This document shows, piece after piece, positions 29,947-64,000 of a stretch of DNA of 64,000 nt (the stretch's first letter is position 1; every line of letters starts with the position of its first letter). Under the pieces are notes generated by a model that saw only the letters and a list, made by a program, of their open reading frames with translations, was not told where the DNA came from and searched no databases. Origin of the DNA: Dipteronia dyeriana (taxonomy: Eukaryota > Streptophyta > Magnoliopsida > Sapindales > Sapindaceae); contig CM065299.1 of assembly GCA_032871835.1 (NCBI GenBank), positions 77,216,204 to 77,280,203 of the forward strand. Reading direction: 5' to 3'. A program made the translations under genes and the position numbers.

Positions 29947-31307
29947 TCAATGCATATGACAAATCCCAATAGACCTACTAAGAGATTTAAACCTAGTTGA
30001 ATCTAATGGTTTTGTAAACAAATCCGCTAGTTGATCATTTGTGCCCACATGTTTAAGTGCAATGCATTTGCTTTCAACTAGCTCCCTTATGAAATGATGT
30101 CTAATGTCAATATGCTTAGTTCTAGAATGTTGGACAAGATTTTTTAAAATATTGATGGCACTCATGTTATCACAATAAAGGGTTAGAGTACCTTGCTCAA
30201 AGCCATAATCCACAAGCATTTGTTTCATCCAAAAGAGTTGTGTACAAGCACTCCCAACTGCTATATACTCGGCCTCGACTGTGGATAATGAGATGGAATT
30301 TTGCTTCTTGCAAAACCAAGACACAAGATTGTTCCCTAGGAAGAAGCAACCGCCTGATGTACTCTTCCTATAATCATAATTACCTGCCCAATCTGTATCA
30401 CTAAAGCCAACTAAACTAGCATTAGTGTCAAAATAGTACCATATCCCATAGTTGGATGTCCCATTTACATATCGAATGATTCTCTTCACAGAGGAGAGAT
30501 GGGATTCCTTGGGATTGGCTTGGTACCTAGCACATACACCAACACTAAAAGCTATATCGAGGCTACTAGCAGTCAAGTATAGCAAGCTCCCTATCATGCC
30601 ACAATATAAACTTTGATCCACACTTTTTCCACTAGAATCCTTGCTAAGTTTCAAAGTGGTACTCATTGGTGTGTCACAATGTTTGGCATTCTGAAGGCCA
30701 AACTTCTTCACTAGATCCTTGGCATACTTAGATTGGGATATGAAGATCCCATCATGCATTTTCTTAATTTGCAAGCCTAGGAAGTAAACATCAACAAATT
30801 GTTGAACTTTCAAGTTGTTAGTGAAACCAAAAACAATGTCATCAACATAAATTTGAGCTATGAGTAGCTCATCTTTAGTGCACTTGATGAACAAAGTCCT
30901 GTCAACACTACCTCTAGAGTAGTCATTGTCAACAAGATAAAGAGTGAGACGCTCATACCAAGCCCTCGGTGTTTGTTTCAACCCATATAGTGCCTTTTTG
31001 AGGCGATAAACATGATTGGGATAGTGAGGATCCACAAACCCCTAGGTTGCTCAACAAACACTTCCTCTTGCAAGAAGACATTGAGGAAGGCACTCTTAAC
31101 ATCCATTTGATACAATTTAAATTGGTGAACACACGATATGGATAAGAGAAGCCTAATGGACTCTAAACGGGCAACGAGAGCAAAAGTCTCCTCAAAGTCG
31201 ATACCCTCAATTTGAGAGTATCCTTGTGCAACAAGCCTAGCTTTGTTCCACACAATGTTGCCATCCTCATCAGATTTGTTCCTATAGACCCACTTGGTGC
31301 CTATCAC
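29947..31307 (-). pseudogene. Nested Copia: reverse transcriptase and RNase H
   Basis: Two overlapping minus-strand frames, 30978-31307 and 29947-31035, are one protein split by a frameshift near 31020. RT motifs in order: GTKWVYRNK, KARLVAQGYSQ, QMDVKSAFLN, LKKALYGLKQTPRAWYERL and the catalytic IYVDDIVFG. RNase H follows with GFSDTDWAG, SISLSTVEAEYIAV, LYCDNMSAINI and QHSRTKHIDIRHHFIREL, ending at LADLFTKPLD and a short tail. The order RT then RNase H at the 3' end is as in all Copia elements. Confidence 0.92.
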
Positions 31308-31388
31308 ATTAGTGTTCTTAGGCCTAGGAAATAGAGTCTAAACATCATTCCTTTCAAATTGATTTAGCTCTTCTTGCATAGCAAGAAC

Positions 31389-33223
31389 CTAAAATTCATC
31401 ACTTAAAGCTTCAACTACCTTTTTGGGTTCAAGTTGAGAGTTGTAGCAAGTGTAACTAATTTGATTTGCTAATTGATGTCTAGTTCTCACACCCTCATTC
31501 ACATTTCTAAGGATGTCACTCTTGTTGTGGAGATGCCTAACCCAATAAGCGGGTTCCTTAGGGTCCAAAGTAGGATCTCTATCAAGAGATTGAGTGACCT
31601 CTTTGTCAAGCTTAGATTTTTCATCACTAGAAATCTCATCAATCCTCACCAAGGGAGTATCATCAATCACACTAATCTCCTCATCATGGTTACTAAACTT
31701 AGGCTTACAATCATCTATGACCACATTAGATGATTCCATAACACTTATAGTTTTCAAATTAAAAACTCTATAGGCCTTACTATTTAGGGCATAGCCAATG
31801 AAAATCCCCTCATCACTCTTGGCATCAAACTTTCCAAGTTGATCACAGTCATTTAGAATGTAACACTTGCTTCCAAATGAGTGGAAGTAGCTAATATTTG
31901 GCTTCCTACCCTTCCATAATTCATAGGACGTTTGCCTAGTCCCGGGCCTAAGAAAAACCCTGTTGCCTATATAACAAGCCGTATTGACAGCTTCAGCCCA
32001 AAGGTTCCTAGGCACATTATTGCTATACAACATCACACGGGCCATCTCTTGGAGGACTCTATTCTTCCTCTCTACTACCCTATTTTGTTGAGGAGTTCGA
32101 GGAACCGAGAACTCATGGGAGATTCCAAGACTATCACAAAATTTTCAAAGCAAACATTTTCAAATTCTCTCCCATGATCACTCCTAATTCTCTTGATGCA
32201 TTTTATGTGAGAATCCTTCTCATTTTGAATTTTCGTGCAAAGTATTTTAAAAGTTTCAAATGTTTCAGATTTCTCTCTAAGAAAGTAAGTCCAAGTAAAT
32301 CTAGAAAAATCATCCACACACACAAAAATGTACCTCTTGCCACCGAGACTCTCGGTTTGCATGGGACCCATAAGGTCCATATGAAGAAGCTCTAATGGCT
32401 CCTTAGTGGCAAGGTACTTACCCTTCTTATGCACACTCTTAGTTTGCTTTCCTTGTTGACAAGGTCCACAAACTCCCTCAATCCTATTTCCAAACTTAGG
32501 AAGACCTCTCACAACTTTCAACCTCTTAAGAACTTTCAAGTCTTTGAAATTCATATGACCTAACCTTTGATGCCATAATTCAACTTGATCACAACTAGAC
32601 AAATTGCAAGAGATGCCATTAGAATTAAGACAATAACAATTGTCACTTGATCTTTTGCCTTTCAATAAAACATGTCCATCTTCTCTCAGAATAGAACAAT
32701 CAACTTTACCAAACATGACCGAAAACCCTTCATCATATAAATGTGATATGCTAATGAGATTGGCTTGCAAGCCATCTACATAGAGATCATTAGGCAAGGA
32801 GGGCAAACCGGGGATGGAGATGTTTCCTTTTCCTAGAACCTTCTTATGTGAACCATCATCAAAGGTGACAAATCCACCATCCTCCATCACAAGAGTTTCA
32901 AAGAAACTCTTGTTTCCAGTCATGTGCCTAGAACATTCGCTATCAAGGTACCAAGTGTTAGAAGCTTTCACCTTCAAAGCCACTTGGGCCACATGGAAAG
33001 CATACTCATTAGTTCTAGTCCACCTAGTAGCAACATTGTCATTCCTAGGCGCCTTGGGTTCATTGGCTCTAAAATTCCTAGGTGCATGCATTTTGGCTCT
33101 TCTAAGCATATTCTTCTCAGTCATGCTTTCAGAACGACACAACTTAATAAATTTAAAACAATTCGGCCTTATATGACCTTCAACACCACAATAATGACAT
33201 ATGAGAGTAAAGTAAGAATTCAT
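31389..33223 (-). pseudogene. Nested Copia: CCHC knuckle, protease and integrase
   Basis: The frame at 32075-33223 opens with a CCHC knuckle (CHYCGVEGHIRPNC, residues ~9-22). Next comes the protease block WYLDSECSRHMTG, where the catalytic DSG is altered to DSE. Then come the integrase zinc-binding region (LWHQRLGHMN ... CGPCQQGK) and the catalytic core with DLMGPMQ, VDDFSRFTW and RSDHGREFEN. The core continues in another frame at 31389-32045 (NLWAEAVNTACYIGNR, SYELWKGRKPNISYFHSFGS, DEGIFIGYALNSKAYRVFN), so a frameshift lies near 32060. Confidence 0.92.
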
Positions 33224-33448
33224 ACCATATCCTTATGCAAACATGGAAGACTTCCCTCTCCTTTGAGCTGTCCTTTGATGTTGAGCCGAATCTCTTATTT
33301 GAAACATCCTTTGCGGTTGAGCCACATTAGCTTCTCTTATTGGTTGTGGGTGAAAACTTTTTTGTTGAATTTGAGAGCTCTTTGGAGGTTGTGGTCTTGT
33401 TTGATGAGCTCTAGCTTTTGGTGAATTTGTTTTAGCTTGAGACTTTGT

Positions 33449-35154
33449 TTATGCTTGCTTTGATGATTCACCAACCTCATTTGATCTCATTTGTTGGTGT
33501 GACTCTTGAACCTCTTTGTCCTTTAGACTCTTGAAAAAGATGGTCTTCTTCAAGGAAGTGGCATCCTTGCCTTCCATATATCCTAGACCCGTTTTATCAT
33601 TAAGACTCTTCCCACATGATAGCATCTTGTCAAGTCTCTCGATTCCGGATGTCATATTGGCAACCAATTCTTTAGCTTCCTTAAGCTCAATCTTCAAGTT
33701 TTCTTCACTCTTCTTAGTGATCACAAGCTCTAACTTTAAACTCTCTTCTAACTCTTTTCCACTCTTTAGCTTCTCACTCAAGTTGGTAATCTTGAAGGAC
33801 AACTCTAGATTCTTCTTTTTCAACTCTTGAACCTCCTTCTTCCTTTTCAATCTAGACTTTTCAAAAAACTTCATAAAGTCTACATAGTCCAATTCCTCAT
33901 CAATATCAAATATAGAGTTAGAAGAGATAGTCTCATCACTAGAGTCATCTACTTCTTTGTTGTCACTCACAACTTCCTTGCCATTATGAGATGTTGTGAA
34001 GGCAATGAAGTTTACAACTCGATCTTCATCATCCAAAGACTTTTCTTCCTCTTCTAAGTCTTCACTATCACTCCAAGTAGCCGCCATTGCCTTCCCCTTT
34101 TTCTTTTTCTTTTTCTTCAAATTTGCACATTCTGGAGCAATGTGACCAAAGCCACTACATTCATAGCATTGAATGCCCTTCTTGGAGTCACTTTCTTGAA
34201 ACTTTTCAATCTTCTTGAAGGGAGTTTTCTTTTTCACTTCTTTTCCCTTTGACCCAAAACCTTTCCTCTCAAATTTCATGAATTTCTTGAATCTTTTAAC
34301 CATGAGGCCATTTCTTCATCTGAGTCCTCCTCCTATTCTTCAACCTTAGTGGTCTTCAAAGCAATGCTCTTTTGCTTCTTTGGAGGTGTGGGTGAGGTGT
34401 TCCATCTAGACTCATAAGCTAGAAGTCTTCCAATGACTTCACTCGACTTCATATTCTTGTACTCACTATTTTCTTCAAGTGCCGTCACTTTTGATTCGAA
34501 CCTTGATGGAACTGACCTCATAATCTTTTGCTTGACTCTTCTATCTGAATAGGGATCACCAAATTGATGGCTTTGGTTGACAATATCCATCAACTTCACT
34601 TGGAAGTCATTGAAGCATTCATGCTCCCCCATTCTAATCATCTCAAACTGCATTTGGAGGACTTGGAGCTTTGAGTCCTTGATTACCTCGGTTCCCTCAT
34701 GTGCTGTTCGAAGAATGTCCCAAGCCACCTTAGCAATCCTAGTGTTTTGGACCAGTTTGTACTGGTTATCATCCACGGCACAGAGAATGGCATGCATAGC
34801 CTTGTTGTTCCAATTGGATGCTTCAAACTCTTGAGTACTCCAACTAGACTTGGGCTTTGAAGCTTCTACACCATCATCAGTGGTCATTATTGGAGGAGTA
34901 TAACCGTCTTCAATAGCCATCCAAGCACGGTCATCTATTTAGCAAAGAAAGGCTTCCATCTTGCCCTTCCAAGTAGCATAATTCACCCCATTGAGCAAAG
35001 GAGGCCTTGTGCTTGAGGCTCCTTCATGACTGTTCCCGTTTCCACTCACAGTGTTTGGGGGTAATAAATGATATGAAGATGCAAATGTAATGCAACACAC
35101 AAAATGCAAACAACCAAAATGCACAAGGTAAGACACACACAATGCACAGATCAC
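33449..35154 (-). pseudogene. Nested Copia: gag
   Basis: Gag is spread over minus-strand frames 34939-35154, 34333-34920 and 33449-34303. The first ends with PPLLNGVNYATWKGKMEAFL, the usual Copia gag opening, then a stop. The second carries the UBN2-type gag core. The third has a CCHC zinc knuckle (CYECSGFGHIAPEC, residues ~41-54), a Lys run, an acidic segment and a Lys/Glu/Leu-rich stretch likely to be coiled coil. Stops at the two joints prevent a continuous product. Confidence 0.88.
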
Positions 35155-36723: not shown

Positions 36724-37470
36724 GCTATGAGTTTGTTCTTACGATCCCTTATAAGTTGGATCCCTAAAACATAACTTGCCTTTTCCAATGAGTAGGATAT
36801 CATCTACGCATAGGATCAAGAAAACTAGTTTCTTATCAATGATGCGCTTGTAGACACAAGGCTCATTGACGTTCTGCTCGAAGCCATAGGTTTTGATCAC
36901 ATCATCAAACCATATGTTCCAAGATCTAGATTTTTGCTTAAGTCCATAGATGAACCTTTGCATCTTGCAAACATTTTGCTCTTGATCTAGAGACACGAAT
37001 CCCTCTAGTTGCATCATATAAATGGTCTCGTCAAGATTTCCATTCAAGAATGCAGTCATGACTTCCATTTGTCAAATTTCATAATCAAAATAGGCAGCAA
37101 TGGATAAGAGAATCCTAATAGACTTAAACATGGATACTAGCGAGAAGGTTTCTTCATAATCGACCCCCTATTTCTAGGTATAACCCTTGGCCACTAGCCT
37201 TGCTTTGAAGGTCTCTACCTTCCATTTTACTCCCCTCTTTCTCTTCTAGATCCACTTACACCCTATGGGTTTTACCTCACCCGGTAAGTCTATAAGATCC
37301 CAGACTAAGTTAGAGTACATGGACTCCATCTGGAGATTCATGGCTTTAAGCCATTCCTTTTTATCAGGATCTTCCATTGCATTCTTAAATGTCAATGGAT
37401 CATCCACACTATCAGCAGAGACAACACCTTGTCCCTTACATATACCAAAATAGCGTTCAGGTTGTCTCAT
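36724..37470 (-). pseudogene. Outer Copia: reverse transcriptase, N-terminal part
   Basis: Minus-strand frames at 37246-37470 and 36739-37068 give the RT entry (DPDKKEWLKAMNLQMESM, KPIGCKWI) and then EVMTAFLNGNLDETIYMMQL, YGLKQKSRSW and a CVDDILLIG active-site block. Region 37069-37245 bridges them with stops. The frame runs into the nested Copia element at 36723 and resumes at 27170. Confidence 0.88.
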
Positions 37471-37524
37471 AACCCTCTCACTACGTCTAGATGGTAGTCT
37501 ATCCTGATTATGAGCAATCTGACT

Positions 37525-38930
37525 CTAAAATGTTTGTGGATCAACAACTCTTGTTGATGAAGCACTAGTCTCACCAGGCTCCAGCTCATTCAACACAATC
37601 TTAGAACGAGGTTTATGGTCACTAATATAACTGTCCTTAAGAAACGTTGCATTTGTTGATACAAATACTTTGTTATCTTCGGGACTATAGAAGTGTCCAC
37701 ATCTGGTCTCCTTGGAGTATCCTACAAACAGACAGACCATAGACTTGGAGTCTAGCTTTCCACTTCTGTTCTTTAGCACGTGTGCTAGACACCCCTATAT
37801 GCGGAAATGTCACAAACTACCTTTACGACCATTCCATAACTCTAGGGGAGTTTTAGGAGCAAATTTGGATGGCACCACATTCAAAATGCATGACGCTGTT
37901 TGTCACGTATATCCCCAGAAGGAATTTGGTAATGATGAGAAACTAATCATAGATCTCACCATTTCCATTAGGGTTCTATTTCTCCTCTCCGATACACCAT
38001 TTTGCTGAGGTGTACCAGGAGCTGTAAGTTGGGAAACTATCCCATACTCGACCATGAAGTCTTTAAACTCTTAGTCAAGGTACTCACCTCCACGATCCGA
38101 TCGTAGTGACTTGATATTCCTACCTAATTGATTCTCAACTTCAGCTCAAAAATCTTTGAACATTTCAAAAGTTTCTGACTTTCGTTGCAATAGGTAGACG
38201 TATCCGTATCTTGAGTAGTCATCTATAAATGTGACATAATACTCATAACCACCCCTAACTTTAACATTCATTGGTCCACAGATGTCTGTATGTATAAGCT
38301 CTAGCGGTTCTTTAGCTCTAAGCTCTTTTCCAGTAAAAGGTCTCTTAGTCATCTTACCTTCCAGACAAGATTTGCAATCAGGTACGGTGCCAACCTTTAA
38401 CTCTCTTAAAGGTCTGCTTTTTACTAGTCTGTCTATCCGGTCAAGGTTGATATGACCAAGCCTTGGATGCTAGAGATACGTGTCATTATCTGGAGAAATC
38501 TTATGTCGTTTAGTTATTGGTTTTTCAACCTTAAACATTTCGGTGTTGAGCAGTGTAGTATGTATTAATGGTCTTAACACATACAAATTGTTTTCAATAA
38601 TTACTGAACAAATATTCAGACCATTCTTTCCAATAATAATAGACTTATTATTAAAAGAAAGAGAATATTTTTGTTTTAACAACTTAGAAACGGAAATCAA
38701 ATTCCGTATAAATCCATGAATATAAAAACATTGTCCAACAATATATAACTATTAGAAAAACGTAATCTAATTACTCTCAGTGCTCGTGCCGACACGACAT
38801 CCTCTGACCCCACACGTATAGAGAAGGCTCCCTCCTCTAGCTGTGTCCAAGAATTAGTCCATTGCAAAGAAGAACAAACATGGTTAGTGACCCCGAAATC
38901 ATCTATCCAGGATGAAGAATCATCTTCCAC
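37525..38930 (-). pseudogene. Outer Copia: protease and integrase
   Basis: Minus-strand pieces in order: protease (38697-38930, SSSWIDDFGVTNHVCSS, active site altered from D-S/T-G), pre-integrase (38470-38700), integrase core (38146-38352, ELIHTDICGPMNV and TFIDDYSRYGYVYLL) and integrase C-terminal part (37525-37779, KSMVCLFVGYSKETRCGHFY). Stops and frameshifts separate them. Confidence 0.85.
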
Positions 38931-57496: not shown

Positions 57497-57909
57497 TTTA
57501 CTAACACGTCCTAAAAAATGGTTCCTACTCCCAAGTATAAGAGTGTCAAATTAATAAATTAATCGGTAAGACCGGGTTGAACCATAAGGAGGTTGTTCAC
57601 TTGTCCTTGTAGAATTAATTATCTAGATTAATCACTAAGTTTGTTATAAAGTGTAAATAAATTAAAATTATAACGGGGGCTAAGGGATCCATTGTTGGTA
57701 AATCAAATATGATCCAATTATTAATATTAGTCCAAATTGATGGGTGGGGTGGGGTGGGGTGGGGTGGGGTGGGGTGGGGGGGTTTCCACACCCCTGTCCA
57801 CTCTCTAATAGATATGGGTAAAGTACCAACTGTGCCAAGCAACATCTATCTGTCCACAGTGAGTCAAAAACTCCACAAAAATCAGAAGGGAGAAAGCAAA
57901 AAATAATAT
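57493..57909. repeat. Spacer with foldback arms around a (TGGGG)n tract
   Basis: 'aatatgatccaattatta' at 57705-57722 recurs inverted at about 57902-57923, each with ATTGTTGGT nearby. Between the arms is (TGGGG)n at 57744-57782. No gene. Confidence 0.5.
57744..57782 (+). repeat. (TGGGG)n, potential G-quadruplex
   Basis: Seven TGGGG units followed by a longer G run: enough G4 runs with 1-nt loops for an intramolecular quadruplex. Confidence 0.9.
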
Positions 57910-58757
57910 TGGATCATATTCTCCACACCAACAATATCACATTTGACCCTAACTATATTAAATTAGCCAGATATAATTTAACTAGGAAATAATTATTTTA
58001 TTTAAACTGAGAATTTGAGAACATTATTAAGATAATTTCACAAATCTAAGGACAGATTTGGATTCAGGATGTCTTAATTAGAGGGGAGGTCCCCTATTTA
58101 TACAAAATACGAATGAAAATTAGCCATCGGATGAATTTAGAATGGAGCATCCAGATTTCACCACGTCATCAGTGAATAATGAACAGTGAACAGTGAACAT
58201 TGATAAGTGAATAGTAACCGCATCAGTGAAAGTCAACAGTAAACAGTGCACTGACTTCTAGAATATGATTCCCTGCAATCACGTGTACGGTGCACTCATA
58301 ATTCGGTCCAATAGAAATGTGCAACGTCATAAGTTAACAGACAAAGTCAATAGTCTTCTAGAATGTGATTCCTCGTAGTCACGTATACGGTGCCCTAGCA
58401 ATTCGGTCCAATAGAAATGTGCCACGTCATTAGTGAACATTGAAAGTCAATTGTGAACAGTGAAAGTCAAATGTGAACAGTGAATAGTCAAAATTATAAA
58501 ACTGCCCTTCGTGGCCTTCCTCGGGTTTTTAACGTTCTGAACTTGAAAATTATGTTTGTTTTGCCATATGATTTCTCCATAATTCTGAATTGACCATATA
58601 CCTTTGAAATACAAAGAAAAATACACAGATTACTACACAATACATTTATTTAAGCGAGCGAACGAAAATATGTCTAAATTAGGGAATTAATCATTTTGGA
58701 AGTGTAAAACAATGATATTATCCCTTTGAAAACATACATTTTTTAGTGTTAATCACA
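57910..58757 (-). repeat. Probable 3' LTR of the Athila/Tat-type Gypsy element
   Basis: On the minus strand the LTR should start TGTGATTAACAC at 58757, directly after the polypurine tract. A TATA box (TATAAATA, complement of 58095-58102) follows after a U3 of about 650 bp. The far end at 57910 (…TATGATCCA) is a guess. The U3 contains repeated GTGAACAGT motifs and a duplicated ~100-bp block. Confidence 0.45.
58170..58500. repeat. GTGAACAGT motifs and a ~100-bp tandem duplication
   Basis: TGAACAGTGAA-type motifs occur at 58175-58250 and 58430-58490. Between them, CTTCTAGAATRTGATTCC ... CAATAGAAATGTGC occurs twice (58256-58324 and 58354-58423). Confidence 0.8.
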
Positions 58758-58792
58758 CCTCCAACCAGCTTATTGCTAGTCCCTAGCAACTA

Positions 58793-59740
58793 AAGCGAAA
58801 ATAGTAAAAACTTAAATTCAAATCTATAAAAAAACTACCAAATAGACAAACTCTCTCATACCTCTTTTCTCACCCTTTGACAACCAGTCATCAATCGAGA
58901 TATCAATCAAACTTTCTTGTGTTCAATAAAGATCAACACAATAACTATGAGATTCAATTGAAATCAAGCAACATTTTCATTCTGAAATCTCATCAGGCAT
59001 TCTTCCTTTGGCGGCAGTTTTATTCATTTTTTTTAACTAAAAAATATAACAAAACTGGAAACAAACATTCCATCTTTAATCCATATAGTGAGCTTTAGGC
59101 AAATGACTCCCAAACCAGTTGGCTTTAGTGCATTAAGTGTTGAAACACTTCTACGGGCTTAATTACTTGGATTGCAGATGTTTATTAGTAAAATTCCCTT
59201 AAGCTTTCTCTTTAACTCGTGTAGCGAGCTTTGGGTAAATGACTCCCAGACCAGTTGATCTTAAGGCATTAGGTGTTGAAGCACCCCTCAGACTTAATTG
59301 CTCGAGTTAAAGAGGCTACAAAACTATACTTTATTCTTATCAAGACTCCACCATTTTACGTGAACACTCTATGCTTGTAGAGGCATGAGGCCCGGCTACT
59401 AAGTAAAGTTTTGGTCAAAACACACAAGATTATTATTATTATATATATATTATAAAAAACTGCCTTCAGTTGTTACCTTTGAATGATGTTTCAAAACTAA
59501 ATATCGTAAAATCTCAACTTACTGCACATAATCACGTGTCAATATGCGTGTGTGTTCAGAATAGTTCCCCAATGTCTTTAGAAAGAGGTAAGGTTTAGAA
59601 GATATAACCTAAACAACTTCAAAGACAATAAAATCCTACAAAAACAACAAAAGTAATATAAAATAAAGGAAAATAAAATGCATAAAAAACATTGGATAAT
59701 TACAAATTGAGATTCAAAACAATTATGTGTTTGTTGTTGT
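58793..59740 (-). other. Non-coding 3' region of the Gypsy element
   Basis: Apart from the tandem duplication at 59080-59310, no coding frame is supported between the LOG copy and the polypurine tract. Confidence 0.5.
59080..59310 (-). repeat. ~115-bp tandem duplication in the Gypsy 3' region
   Basis: GTGAGCTTTAGGCAAATGAC at 59088 and GCGAGCTTTGGGTAAATGAC at 59225 start two copies. Both continue with CCAGTTG and GTGTTGAA blocks. Confidence 0.8.
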
Positions 59741-59744
59741 CTTC

Positions 59745-60482
59745 ATTATTGGACCAATTTATTTTGGAGGTTGAGGGATCTGGCTCATATTTAAAAGCTT
59801 GTAACTAGTCAATCAACTCATGAGCATTTAAAGTAGAGATAAAGATTTTTTGGATTGAAGGTGGAATGTAATAATTTTACTGAGCATGATCAAGAAATGG
59901 AAGCAAACCATCATAAAATTTATTAACATTCAACAAACCGATGGGTTTCTCATGGATGTGTAGTTACGTCCAGGATGCCATTGTAAAGATTTCTTCTAAG
60001 GTTTCAAAACCACCTGGCAAAGCAGTAAACACATTAGCATAATGTAACATAGTAGTCAATCTTTCCTACATACTTGAAACAACTAGCTCTTCACCGTTTG
60101 TCTTTCCGATGATGTCCGCTGCGGCCATAGGTTTTGGGACGATAACCGGAACTTGACTACCTCTGTCTTGTATAGCTCGTGAAACATACCCCATTAATCC
60201 CAAGTTACCTCTTTCATACACTAGATGTATTTTTCATTCAGCCAAAACCTTACCAAGATGAGTTGCAGCCTCAACAAACTCTCTATATTTCCCATAATTA
60301 GTGCCACCAAACACACAAATGTTTGTGAATCGTTTAGCTGAAGGTGATGCCGTTAATGCACTCTTTGAATTTTTCTTTTGAATGCTTATGAGTGCTTTGA
60401 AGAAAAGGGAAAACAGATGCTTGTATTTATAGATCTTGAAAAGGTAACACAATGATACATCTATATGTATAGGGCAATGCAT
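59745..60482 (-). pseudogene. LOG: LOG-like cytokinin phosphoribohydrolase, intronless copy with stops
   Basis: LOG enzymes release active cytokinin bases from cytokinin riboside 5'-monophosphates. The minus strand reads through the whole LOG fold in a single frame: RFTNICVFGGTNYGKYREFV, IHLVY...GNLGLMGYVSRAIQDRG, PKPMAAADIIGKTNGEELVV, FTALPGGFETLEEIFTMASW, KPIGLLNVNKFYDGLLPFLD, a C-terminal HELID. The PGGxGTxxE catalytic motif is present as PGGFETLEE, with the second Gly changed to Glu. Five stops interrupt it (TGA at 60234, TAG at 60066, TAA at 59964, TAA at 59877, TAG at 59805), but there is no frameshift and no intron, whereas plant LOG genes normally have several introns. The 5' start is uncertain; a TATAAATA lies at 60424-60431 on the minus strand. 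It sits between integrase and the 3' LTR of the Gypsy element, same strand. Confidence 0.8.
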
Positions 60483-60658
60483 TTGTCAATGATATTATAT
60501 CCAAATGGTTCAAAAATCAAAAGTAAACAACAATAATTTCAAAAGACATTAAATGTAGAAGGAAAAAGATAATAAAAACAAAAGGATATTTACTGGTAGT
60601 TGTGATTGTGGCTCACACCTTCCTCTGGTTTTACATCCAGTAACGGCTTCAACGCTCT

Positions 60659-61211
60659 CTATGGGTATGGGATATGCTGCCCATCAAAGTTTCTTATAAA
60701 TTGGAAAACAGGGTCTTTTAAAGTCAGATTCCCAAGACTATATTGTGCATATTCTTTTTGAAATTGTGGCCATAATCGGTCAATTGTCATTTGCAGATAT
60801 CCATTAGGATGTGCATTAAGAGTCGTTAGGATATTATCTAATGACTTCCTATGCAAACCATGCCTAATGAATAAAATTTTACCCTCCTGATTATTAGACA
60901 CCATTCCTAAAGAACGACAACATGTGTTGCAAGTTGTACGTGCACATTTGTGACAAGTAATGCCTAACTTCTTAGCACTCCATTTTCTTGTAAGGTTACT
61001 TCTTCCAAAACCAGGCATGTAAGAAAAAAAATGAATCAGAAGACTCACCTGTTAGAAGTACCTTAACTTCGATCAACCAACGAATATCAGCAGGAATGTT
61101 GTACATCATCAGTAAGCGCAATCTTTCGGATCGTGCTTTGTAAATATTTTTCAGAGCATTTTGAGGCAACGATGGCAAATATTTTTGCATGTTTGTGAAA
61201 ATTTCGTCCAT
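60659..61211 (-). pseudogene. Unidentified cysteine-rich reading frame downstream of integrase
   Basis: Two overlapping minus-strand frames (60996-61211, 71 codons; 60659-61048, 129 codons) look like parts of one product. The first starts MDEIFTNMQKYLPSLPQNAL. The second contains a cluster CHKCARTTCNTCC (about residues 32-44), which could bind zinc, and ends RNFDGQHIPYP. A splice-donor-like CAG|GTGAGT at 61048 suggests the two were joined by splicing, or by a past frameshift. I do not recognise the family. It lies between integrase and the LOG copy, where Athila elements place env-like genes, but no signal peptide or membrane segment of that kind is evident. Confidence 0.4.
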
Positions 61212-61419: not shown

Positions 61420-62821
61420 TACTCACTGTTGTAACAAAGGTCAGAAAGGACGATAGAGTCTTTTTGAAAATCTGTATGTTCTAAGAATGGTTTCACACGT
61501 TGTCCGTTTACTTTAAACACATTACCATTCCTGGGATTCTCAATGTCAATGGCACCAAATGGATACACGTGTTCACAACAAATGGATCACTCCACTTTGA
61601 TTTCAATTTGCTAGGAAATAAATGAAGTCGAGAATTATAAAGAAAAACCAACTTCAGTTGATCTTCTAAAAATACATTTGTCATGAAGGGTTTTAGATTT
61701 TTCTTTAAGAATTTTTGCATTTTCATATGCATCATTTCTTACATCTTCAAGTTCATTTATTTGCAACTTGCGCAATTCACCAGCATTTTTAGGTTAGAAT
61801 TGAAAGTTTTAATGGCCTAATATGCTTTTTTCTCAAGTTCAACAGGTAAGTGGCTAGGTTTTCCATAAACTAAACGATAACGAGACATACCCAAAGATGT
61901 TTTGAATGTAGTACGGTAAGCCCAAAGTGCCTTATTTAGTCTAAGAGCCTAATCTTTTTGATTAGGGTTAACTGTTTTTTTGCAAGATCTACTTTATTTC
62001 CCTATTTGCTAACTCAACTTGACCACTTGTTTGAGGGTGGTATGGTGTGGCAATTTTGTGTGTGACTCCGTATTTCTTCATTAAAGATCCAAAAGGTTTG
62101 TTATAAAAGTGTTTGCCTCCATCACTGGTAATGGTTCGAGGGATTCCAAATCGACTCAAAAGATTTTTCTTTAAAAACTTAATCACTGTTTTGTGATCAT
62201 TATTTTGACAAGGAATTGCTTCAACCCATTTTGACACATAATCGACGGCAACCAAAATGTACAAAAATCCAAATGACGGTGGAAATGAACCCATACAATT
62301 AATTCCCCAACAATCAAATATTTCAATGACAAGAATGGAGTTTAAAGGCATCATGTTTCACTTGGAAATGGATCCTAATTTTTGACAATTTTCACAAGTT
62401 TTACAGAATGCATGTGCATCTTTAAACAATGTGGGCCAATAAAATCTACATTGCCAGATTTTTACAGTCATTTTCTTTGACGAAAAATGACCACCACATG
62501 CTTCAGAATGACAAAATTTAATAATGCTACTTACCTCATTGTCTGGAATACACGTCGAACGATTTGATTAGGACAATACTTGGATAAGTACGGGTCATCC
62601 CAGTAAAAACGTTTTACCTCGGTCAAAAATTTCTTTTTATCATATGTATTCCAAACAAGTGGCATCCTTCCTGTTGCAAGATTTAACAATGTCAGTATAC
62701 CAAGGCATAGTTGTGACAGATAATAAAAGATCGTCAGGAAAAGAATCATTAATGGGTGTTTTATCAAATGACGACTTAGTGGTGAGTCGTAATAAATGGT
62801 TTGCGACGACATTTTTAGCAC
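61420..62821 (-). pseudogene. Athila/Tat-type integrase
   Basis: In order on the minus strand: zinc-binding region (62380-62821, with FLTEVKRFYWDDPYLSKYCP and HSEACGGHFS in shifted frames), and catalytic core (61989-62354: [63 protein letters not shown]). The C-terminal part follows (61508-61735 and on to a stop at 61420: LVFLYNSRLHLFPSKLKSKW, then VNGQRVKPFLEH). The DDE residues of the core are visible. Frameshifts near 62530, 62370 and 61570 and several stops break it. Confidence 0.88.
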
Positions 62822-63068
62822 CCTTTTTGTCCTTAATTTTGAGATTGAATTTTTGTAGCAACAAAATCCAGAAAATCAGTCCTGGTTTTGCATCTTGTTT
62901 AGATATTAAATACTTCACAGCAGCGTGATCAGTAAAAACAATGGTTGATACGCCAATCAAGTATGACCGAAATCTATCCAATACAAATATCACAACAAGT
63001 AATTCTTTCTCAGTAGTGGTGTAATTCATTTGTGCACTATTTAAAGTTTTACTTGCATAATAATTCAC
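62640..63068 (-). pseudogene. Gypsy RNase H
   Basis: MNYYASKTLNSAQMNYTTTE, then KELLVVIFVLDRFRSYLIG and TIVFTDHAAVKYLISKQDAK: the standard Athila/Tat RNase H, followed by the linker to integrase. Open for 142 codons; it joins the RT upstream after a break near 63090. Confidence 0.88.
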
Positions 63069-63585
63069 AAAAGGCTTACCTTCTCTTCTCTATCCTAAGA
63101 CAGCTTCAACAGCAAAATCACTCACATCACACATCAAATTAAAAGGCAAGGATCAATCAAGGGATTGCATGATAGAAGCAGATGTTAAAAGATCAATTAT
63201 CTTTTTAAAAGACTCTCGACACTCTTGTGTCCGTTTAAATTTTGTATCCTTTAATAAGAGGTTACAAAGTGATTTAGTTATGACACTGAAATCTTTAATA
63301 AACCTCCTATAAATCTTGTATGCCTTAAAAATGACCACACATCTTTGACTGTTTGTGGTGATGGTAACTTCAAAATGACTTCAATTTTTGCCTTATCAAC
63401 CTTGATTCCTTTTAATGACACAACATGACCCAAAACAATTCTAGACGTGGTTATATAATGACACTTTTCCTAGTTAAGCACAAGTCCTTTTTCTATACAA
63501 CGTTTCAAGACTCTTTCCAAGTTATTAAGACAATCATTAAAAGAATTCCCAAACATAATTAAATCATGTTGTTCTATATTAGTTA
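63069..63585 (-). pseudogene. Gypsy reverse transcriptase, C-terminal part
   Basis: The minus strand at 63153-63338 gives the thumb/connection region (YRRFIKDFSVITKSLCNLLL, QECRESFKKIIDLLTSA). Upstream to 63585, with stops, are blocks for a post-YxDD 'NWEKCHF' motif and 'GIKVDKAKIE'. The catalytic YxDD block itself is cut off by the Copia sequence. Confidence 0.8.
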
Positions 63586-64000
63586 AGAACTTACGGATCC
63601 AAACAACCTCTTTAGCTGCTTCACTAGCTGCTACGTATTCGACTTCCATGGTGGAGTCAGCAATACATGATTGTTTAAAACTCCTCTGTACATAAGTTTA
63701 ATCCCTAAAACATAACTCGCCTTTCTCAAATCTTTCATTAGTAATTGGCTAGCCAGCAAGCCCTTTACTTCTAACAATACCCATTCGTCATTCCTAATAA
63801 GTAGGATATCATCTATGTATAGGACTAAGAAAACTACTTTCTTGTCATTAATGCGCTTGTAGACACAAGACTCATCAACGTTTGGCTCGAAGCCATAGAT
63901 TTTAATAGCACTATCAAACCTAATGTTTTAAGATCTAAATGCCTGTTTTAGTCCATAAATGGACCTTTGCAACTTGTAAAGATTTTGCTCTTAATCTAGA
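63586..64000 (-). mobile_element. Internally deleted Copia fragment (same family as the outer element)
   Basis: The minus strand carries RNase H sequence matching 26600-26700, which jumps directly to reverse transcriptase sequence matching 36745-37000 (the CVDD-type active-site region, 'cgcttgtagacacaag'). The intervening ~600 bp of pol are missing and part of the RT has an extra segment. It continues past the window edge. Confidence 0.8.

Follow-up and report, generated by a model that had tools for sequence, protein, structure and literature searches.

An intronless copy of LOG, a cytokinin-activating enzyme, lies within a retrotransposon in the 64,000-nucleotide stretch of Dipteronia dyeriana DNA that was analysed (the window). 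This raises the question of whether it came here by a one-off uptake or belongs to the element, and of what an element would do with such an enzyme.

The LOG copy in the window and its element

The window element is a dead, 5'-truncated, Athila-like Ty3/gypsy copy that carries a sense-strand LOG between the integrase and the 3' LTR. Its features, in window coordinates, are the following:

57502-58755, minus strand: 3' LTR, which begins TGATTAACAC and has its end changed from CA to TA
58756-59699, minus strand: non-coding stretch from LOG to the 3' LTR
59700-60353, minus strand: LOG reading, dead copy (217 codons plus stop, ACG start, five stops)
60354-60485, minus strand: 44 codons in frame with LOG and ahead of its start, none of them a stop
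60424-60431, minus strand: TATAAATA, candidate core promoter of LOG's own, 78 bases before the LOG start
60662-61051, minus strand: second small accessory reading, an open piece with basic/Cys motif
61422-62680, minus strand: integrase homology, with a core domain piece at 61992-62357
62643-63089, minus strand: RNase H piece of pol (PF17917, 70 bits)
63567, no strand: point near which the copy breaks off on its 5' side

The LOG reading has neither introns nor indels, and its codons run from 60353 down to 59703, followed by the stop codon at 59702-59700. The first-pass annotation had placed LOG at 59745-60482; these forward coordinates are right, the strand is minus, and the plus-strand reading of 59745-60482 contains no LOG. 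Its length of about 240 codons is explained by the 44 open codons that precede the 217 codons of LOG. It was correct in describing an intronless gene on the element's own strand between integrase (homology at 61422-62680) and 3' LTR (57502-58755), and its five in-frame stops without an indel are found again in the minus-frame reading and in the comparison with the unbroken copy L009, to which the window LOG is 80.6% identical. Given the five stops and the start codon changed from ATG to ACG at 60353, it is clear that this copy is dead and can no longer give the protein. The C-terminal end of the dead reading is LNLNL. The LOG of L009 matches PF03641 with 130 bits (cut-off 27), TIGR00730 with 160 bits (cut-off 96) and Arabidopsis At2g37210 (2a33) with an E-value of 4.6e-55, which places its assignment far beyond chance.

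The homology to other copies of the element extends to about 63567; beyond this break, at 63634-63927 on the minus strand, stands a piece of a copia reverse transcriptase, and therefore the window copy is without its 5' part. Two copia elements are found elsewhere on the minus strand of the window, one at 29947-34938 with long open pieces and gag, zinc knuckle, integrase and reverse transcriptase domains, and a decayed one at 36742-38469 with reverse transcriptase and pre-integrase pieces. On the plus strand, an open reading of 224 amino acids at 16696-17370 matches POP1_N marginally (23.3 bits against a cut-off of 22.2) and is perhaps a piece of a host RNase P/MRP subunit gene.

The TATA-type site TATAAATA is present in 24 of 27 flanked copies (defined below), mostly at -78, with a conservation that is not exceptional (rank 54 of 232), and it may act as LOG's own promoter. 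A spliced leader for LOG was also considered and rejected: the upstream tract is 72% pyrimidine versus 47%, yet it offers no convincing acceptor. The second reading between integrase and LOG, which contains a Cys motif after a basic run, is open over 188 codons in 4 of the 27 copies (L014:3861-4424, L017:3878-4441, L064:611-1174 and L078:2436-2999). It weakly resembles carlavirus nucleic-acid-binding proteins, with 21.0 bits for PF01623 in L005 (cut-off 20.9); among 10 other pieces, six score at most 19.3 bits, below the cut-off, and four give no match. A comparison with phage records returned no match. A protein of the carlavirus nucleic-acid-binding type would, at this stage, be a lead only.

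Distribution and origin of the LOG-bearing elements

The genome of D. dyeriana contains at least 195 further LOG copies, distributed over contigs C1-C9, which are nine chromosomes. This count is the union of two genome searches, in which 150 of 671 and 150 of 786 candidates were scored, and it is a lower bound because the window copy is itself absent from the 195 places. In every listed match the query is covered almost in full, with no introns (E at most 1.8e-30 and 2.4e-48). The search for more LOG-bearing elements, proposed in the first-pass annotation, thus does not support a one-off uptake: LOG is an accessory gene present in high copy number, and domains of its type have already been published from related elements.

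The position of LOG was followed in 27 copies with usable flanks and distinct LOG letters, after eleven loci of places counted before, and L066, had been dropped. An LTR lies downstream of LOG in all 27, and in 25 of these the end of the integrase lies upstream as well, at 1047-1087 bases from LOG (2061 in L015). L065 (C4:34320159) and L066 (C4:34414410) lie about 94 kb apart and are identical over the 400 bases compared, which may point to recent segmental duplication or to a repeat in the assembly. In L011, LOG lies inside two LTRs of 1423 and 1277 bp with TG..CA ends, and the 5-bp target duplication GTAGG stands on both flanks outside the LTRs, bracketing the whole LOG-bearing element. Its LTRs differ by a K2P distance of 0.083, which corresponds to roughly 3 million years at the rate of 1.3e-8 changes per site and year of rice; trees may be slower. 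The LOG frame was examined in 56 copies drawn from the best-scoring matches, a sample that leans to intact copies: 50 are of full length without indels, 26 of these without a stop and 24 with stops, while six were dropped for indels, breaks or truncation (L002, L023, L024, L026, L027 and L034). It is clear that LOG is a regular sense-strand accessory gene of this family, open in many copies.

The assignment to Ty3/gypsy comes from several copies, the window copy being truncated: TG..CA LTRs, a 5-bp duplication, and gag, reverse transcriptase, RNase H and integrase domains are all found. L009 has gag and integrase domains, with protease matches below the Pfam cut-off, and misses reverse transcriptase and RNase H; L015 has these latter two. 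The gag letters and the primer site of the family look Athila-like. No second, archaeal-type RNase H was detected by Pfam in the scanned pieces of L009, L012, L014, L015 and L016, which are parts of each element, and this domain is the mark of Tat (PMC6317226). The Athila ORF-1 model PF03078 gave no match; PMC6317226 reports it in 16% of Athila elements. Of the Athila/Tat type first proposed, the element looks Athila-like rather than Tat, as judged from the pieces searched for the second RNase H.

Relatives of the gene extend well beyond this family. Three D. dyeriana proteins (P0005, P0007 and P0008) match at 83, 69 and 88% identity, and the nearest proteins elsewhere (best 120 of 7411 and of 6556) are those of Xanthoceras, Populus, Diplodiscus, Reevesia, Melia, Paulownia and environmental DNA. 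The Paulownia relative stands on one 41-kb contig and is possibly contamination. Many of the environmental relatives are complete readings of 215-217 amino acids on contigs of 1-5 kb and, therefore, are probably intronless. In the Xanthoceras gene models P0003 and P0004, Athila-type gag letters are joined to LOG, as seen by eye against L009; the retro-type LOGs of Populus, Diplodiscus, Reevesia, Melia and environmental DNA are known here from the LOG sequence, not from element context. Of two scans of viral contigs, the first gave no relative and the second a single one, of 41% identity (L081).

The tree of LOG copies against cellular LOGs, also suggested beforehand, was built from 67 chosen proteins. 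Rooted on two microbial LOGs, it groups all 46 retro-type LOGs, among them those of Dipteronia, Xanthoceras, Populus, Diplodiscus, Reevesia, Melia and Paulownia, in a single clade (97.4/99) apart from AtLOG8 and 18 proteins of LOG1/3/4 type; long-branch effects are possible in this set. With this limited sampling of cellular LOGs, the tree suggests that LOG probably entered an ancestral element once, long ago, and then travelled along with it. An uptake from mRNA would fit the lack of introns. Three poplar proteins publicly named LOGL10 (P0022, P0054 and P0117) bear the C-terminal tail described below, the tree places P0022 and P0117 among the retro-type LOGs, and all three are probably element genes.

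The retro-type LOG protein and its possible use to the element

The fold and the motif of the enzyme are retained. The profile matches of L009, the motif alignment and the predicted structure of the Diplodiscus protein P0119 (mean pLDDT 85.5, with LOG-like alternating strands and helices and a disordered tail) all indicate a LOG fold with the PGGxGTxxE motif, here PGGxGTLEE. When 30 retro-type LOGs are aligned with 10 cellular ones, Glu120 is invariant and Arg98 and Glu121 nearly so; Arg98 and Glu120/121 are kept in at least 90%. Arg98 and the Glu are presumably catalytic. Among 125 positions that are near-invariant in cellular LOGs, 62 keep their residue in at least 90% of retro-LOGs, and at 42 a different residue is the commonest; seven of these 42 lie in 96-106, with Lys99 among them. 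Thus, of the stretch at Arg98-Lys99 that is invariant in cellular LOGs, Arg98 is kept and Lys99 and its neighbours are changed in most retro-LOGs, and for this reason their activity is uncertain. The LOG of L009 reaches 108.5 bits for the equivalog NF058542, below its cut-off of 300.

The tail was compared in proteins picked by length: 151 out of 187 non-cellular ones, and 114 out of 120 cellular ones, which are of LOG1/3/4 type. An exact LxLxL end is present in 131 of the 151 retro-type LOGs and in none of the 114 cellular ones, and a basic run in 148 versus one. When up to three extra end residues are allowed, LxLxL is found in 98 of the first 120 retro-type proteins and in none of 120 cellular LOGs. 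It is absent from the Xanthoceras proteins seen and from some others. In 24 proteins of less than 75% identity, positions 207-209, 213, 215 and 217 are conserved at 83-92%, and the linker 187-205 averages 52%. The basic run resembles a nuclear import signal. LxLxL, or DLNxxP, is the EAR repression pattern as described in PMC9956375, and by sequence this pattern is present in the same 131 of 151 proteins. The tail therefore looks NLS/EAR-like and seemingly suited to nuclear work.

Taken together, the dead truncated Athila-like copy, the regular LOG of its family, the single old capture and a mechanism acting through the nuclear tail make up an account that we consider likely. In this mechanism, the element would express, possibly through a TATA promoter of its own, a protein with the LOG fold and the catalytic motif retained; the basic-plus-LxLxL tail would bring this protein into the nucleus and to TOPLESS-type co-repressors; and there it would shift the hormone or transcription state of the cell, from which the element would benefit. 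An effect on host cytokinin, which the first-pass annotation had suggested, could be one outcome.

The protein may act in either of two ways, as a hormone cargo or as a nuclear repressor. It is conceivable, at clearly less than even chances, that it is an ordinary cytokinin-activating LOG with an incidental tail, raising free cytokinin and, thereby, the number of dividing cells in which to transpose. The confidently modelled LOG fold, the kept PGGxGTLEE and the close match to Arabidopsis LOG structures agree with this, but the 42 changed positions out of 125, with the seven in 96-106 that include Lys99, and a tail conserved far more than its linker speak against it. A further step, of slightly lower probability, is that the enzyme has been turned into a nuclear effector, with a remodelled substrate stretch and a nuclear-entry/EAR tail retained across several plant orders, which would silence host genes or hydrolyse a defence nucleotide and so favour transposition.

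It is improbable that the captured LOG is a passenger of no use to the element, with open copies that are merely young. Within Dipteronia, pN/pS is 0.66 for LOG, and the frames of the non-coding spacer score alike (0.54-0.75), as the passenger explanation would have it, and 24 of the 50 indel-free copies carry stops. Indeed, the Dipteronia copies mostly decay freely after insertion. Nonetheless, gag-PR (0.71) and integrase (0.70) behave in the same way, and for this reason within-genome codon ratios cannot discriminate a passenger from a needed gene. The proposal that dN/dS across copies would settle function had thus to be abandoned, and a low ratio was rejected as proof of function on the same spacer values. 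The other copy-based measures are as follows. Over all copy pairs dN/dS is 0.61 (0.47-0.82), and a codon model gives an omega of 0.84 (LRT against 1 of 4.96). The pairwise ratio falls as dS rises, with a binning that is biased, and falls less in a split-codon version (from 0.79 to 0.54). Changes common to at least six copies include fewer replacements (22 N, 18 S, p 0.035), while among those in at least three copies replacements are not depleted (79 N of 111, p 0.67). Shared replacements weakly avoid conserved positions (p 0.06 for three or more copies and 0.025 for two or more).

LOG is, on the other side, the least diverged part of the element, with 0.058 changes per site compared with 0.065 for integrase, 0.072 for the 3' non-coding stretch, 0.073 for the spacer and 0.100 for the LTR; it lies below the spacer in 29 of 35 pairs and below the 3' non-coding stretch in 30 of 35. 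The conserved tail and the open retro-LOGs of equal length in several plant orders also count against a passenger. A Populus retro-LOG, about 1.0 change per residue away, is equally long and free of stops; had there been no constraint, some 11 stops would be expected. This argument is softened by the fact that database proteins are ascertained for being open. This intactness between species argues for past constraint on the retro-LOG, and one old capture followed by long retention appears supported.

Finally, a processed pseudogene of a host LOG, inserted into the element independently and by chance, can practically be dismissed: the window LOG is intronless and broken, but LOG occupies the same place, with both neighbours, in 25 of the 27 flanked copies, and the duplication of L011 lies outside the LTRs, which speaks against an insertion site of LOG's own; the gene is part of the element, as had been supposed.

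Comparison with known systems

Athila-like elements similar to LOGL4 are reportedly named in the abstract of Steinbauerova et al. 2011. A LOG-type domain in Ty3/gypsy elements is a known kind: PMC9289625, which credits Steinbauerova et al. 2011, reports that Gypsy consensus elements from two Citrus species contain a YgdH (LOG-type) domain, as do those of Populus trichocarpa when one filter is left off. Beyond the papers named here, a search by title and abstract, with most subscription journals outside it, pointed to no other description of LOG in elements, nor to any of an EAR motif in a LOG or an element protein. The conserved tail and the wide set of relatives are new here. LOG in Athila-like elements thus passes from a listed curiosity to what looks like a widespread, old accessory gene; why an element would keep a hormone enzyme can be put to the test through a few predictions, namely nuclear entry, TOPLESS binding and a nucleotide substrate, and some poplar LOGL10 annotations are suggested to be element genes.

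The cellular plant LOGs of LOG1/3/4 type share the fold, PGGxGTLEE, Arg98 and Glu120 with the retro-LOG, and the Dipteronia copies are 41-49% identical to the cellular LOG P0123 of Dipteronia sinensis; in contrast, the retro-LOG has no introns, is changed at Lys99 and its neighbours in most cases and has gained the basic-LxLxL tail. The YgdH elements of Citrus and Populus (PMC9289625) likewise carry the LOG-type domain as an extra gene in Ty3/gypsy, whereas the host here is Dipteronia, and this analysis adds a count of at least 195 copies, the place and strand of LOG, a wider range of relatives and the conserved tail. The AlkB-type demethylase gene of a Phalaenopsis Gypsy (PMC9289625) is also a host-type enzyme taken as an extra gene by a plant Gypsy family; enzyme and host are different, and AlkB activity was shown in vitro, whereas LOG is known here from sequence. 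The extra reading frames between pol and 3' LTR, env-like ones included, that are treated in the review PMC7264820 share position and sense orientation with LOG, which, unlike these, has an identifiable enzyme fold.
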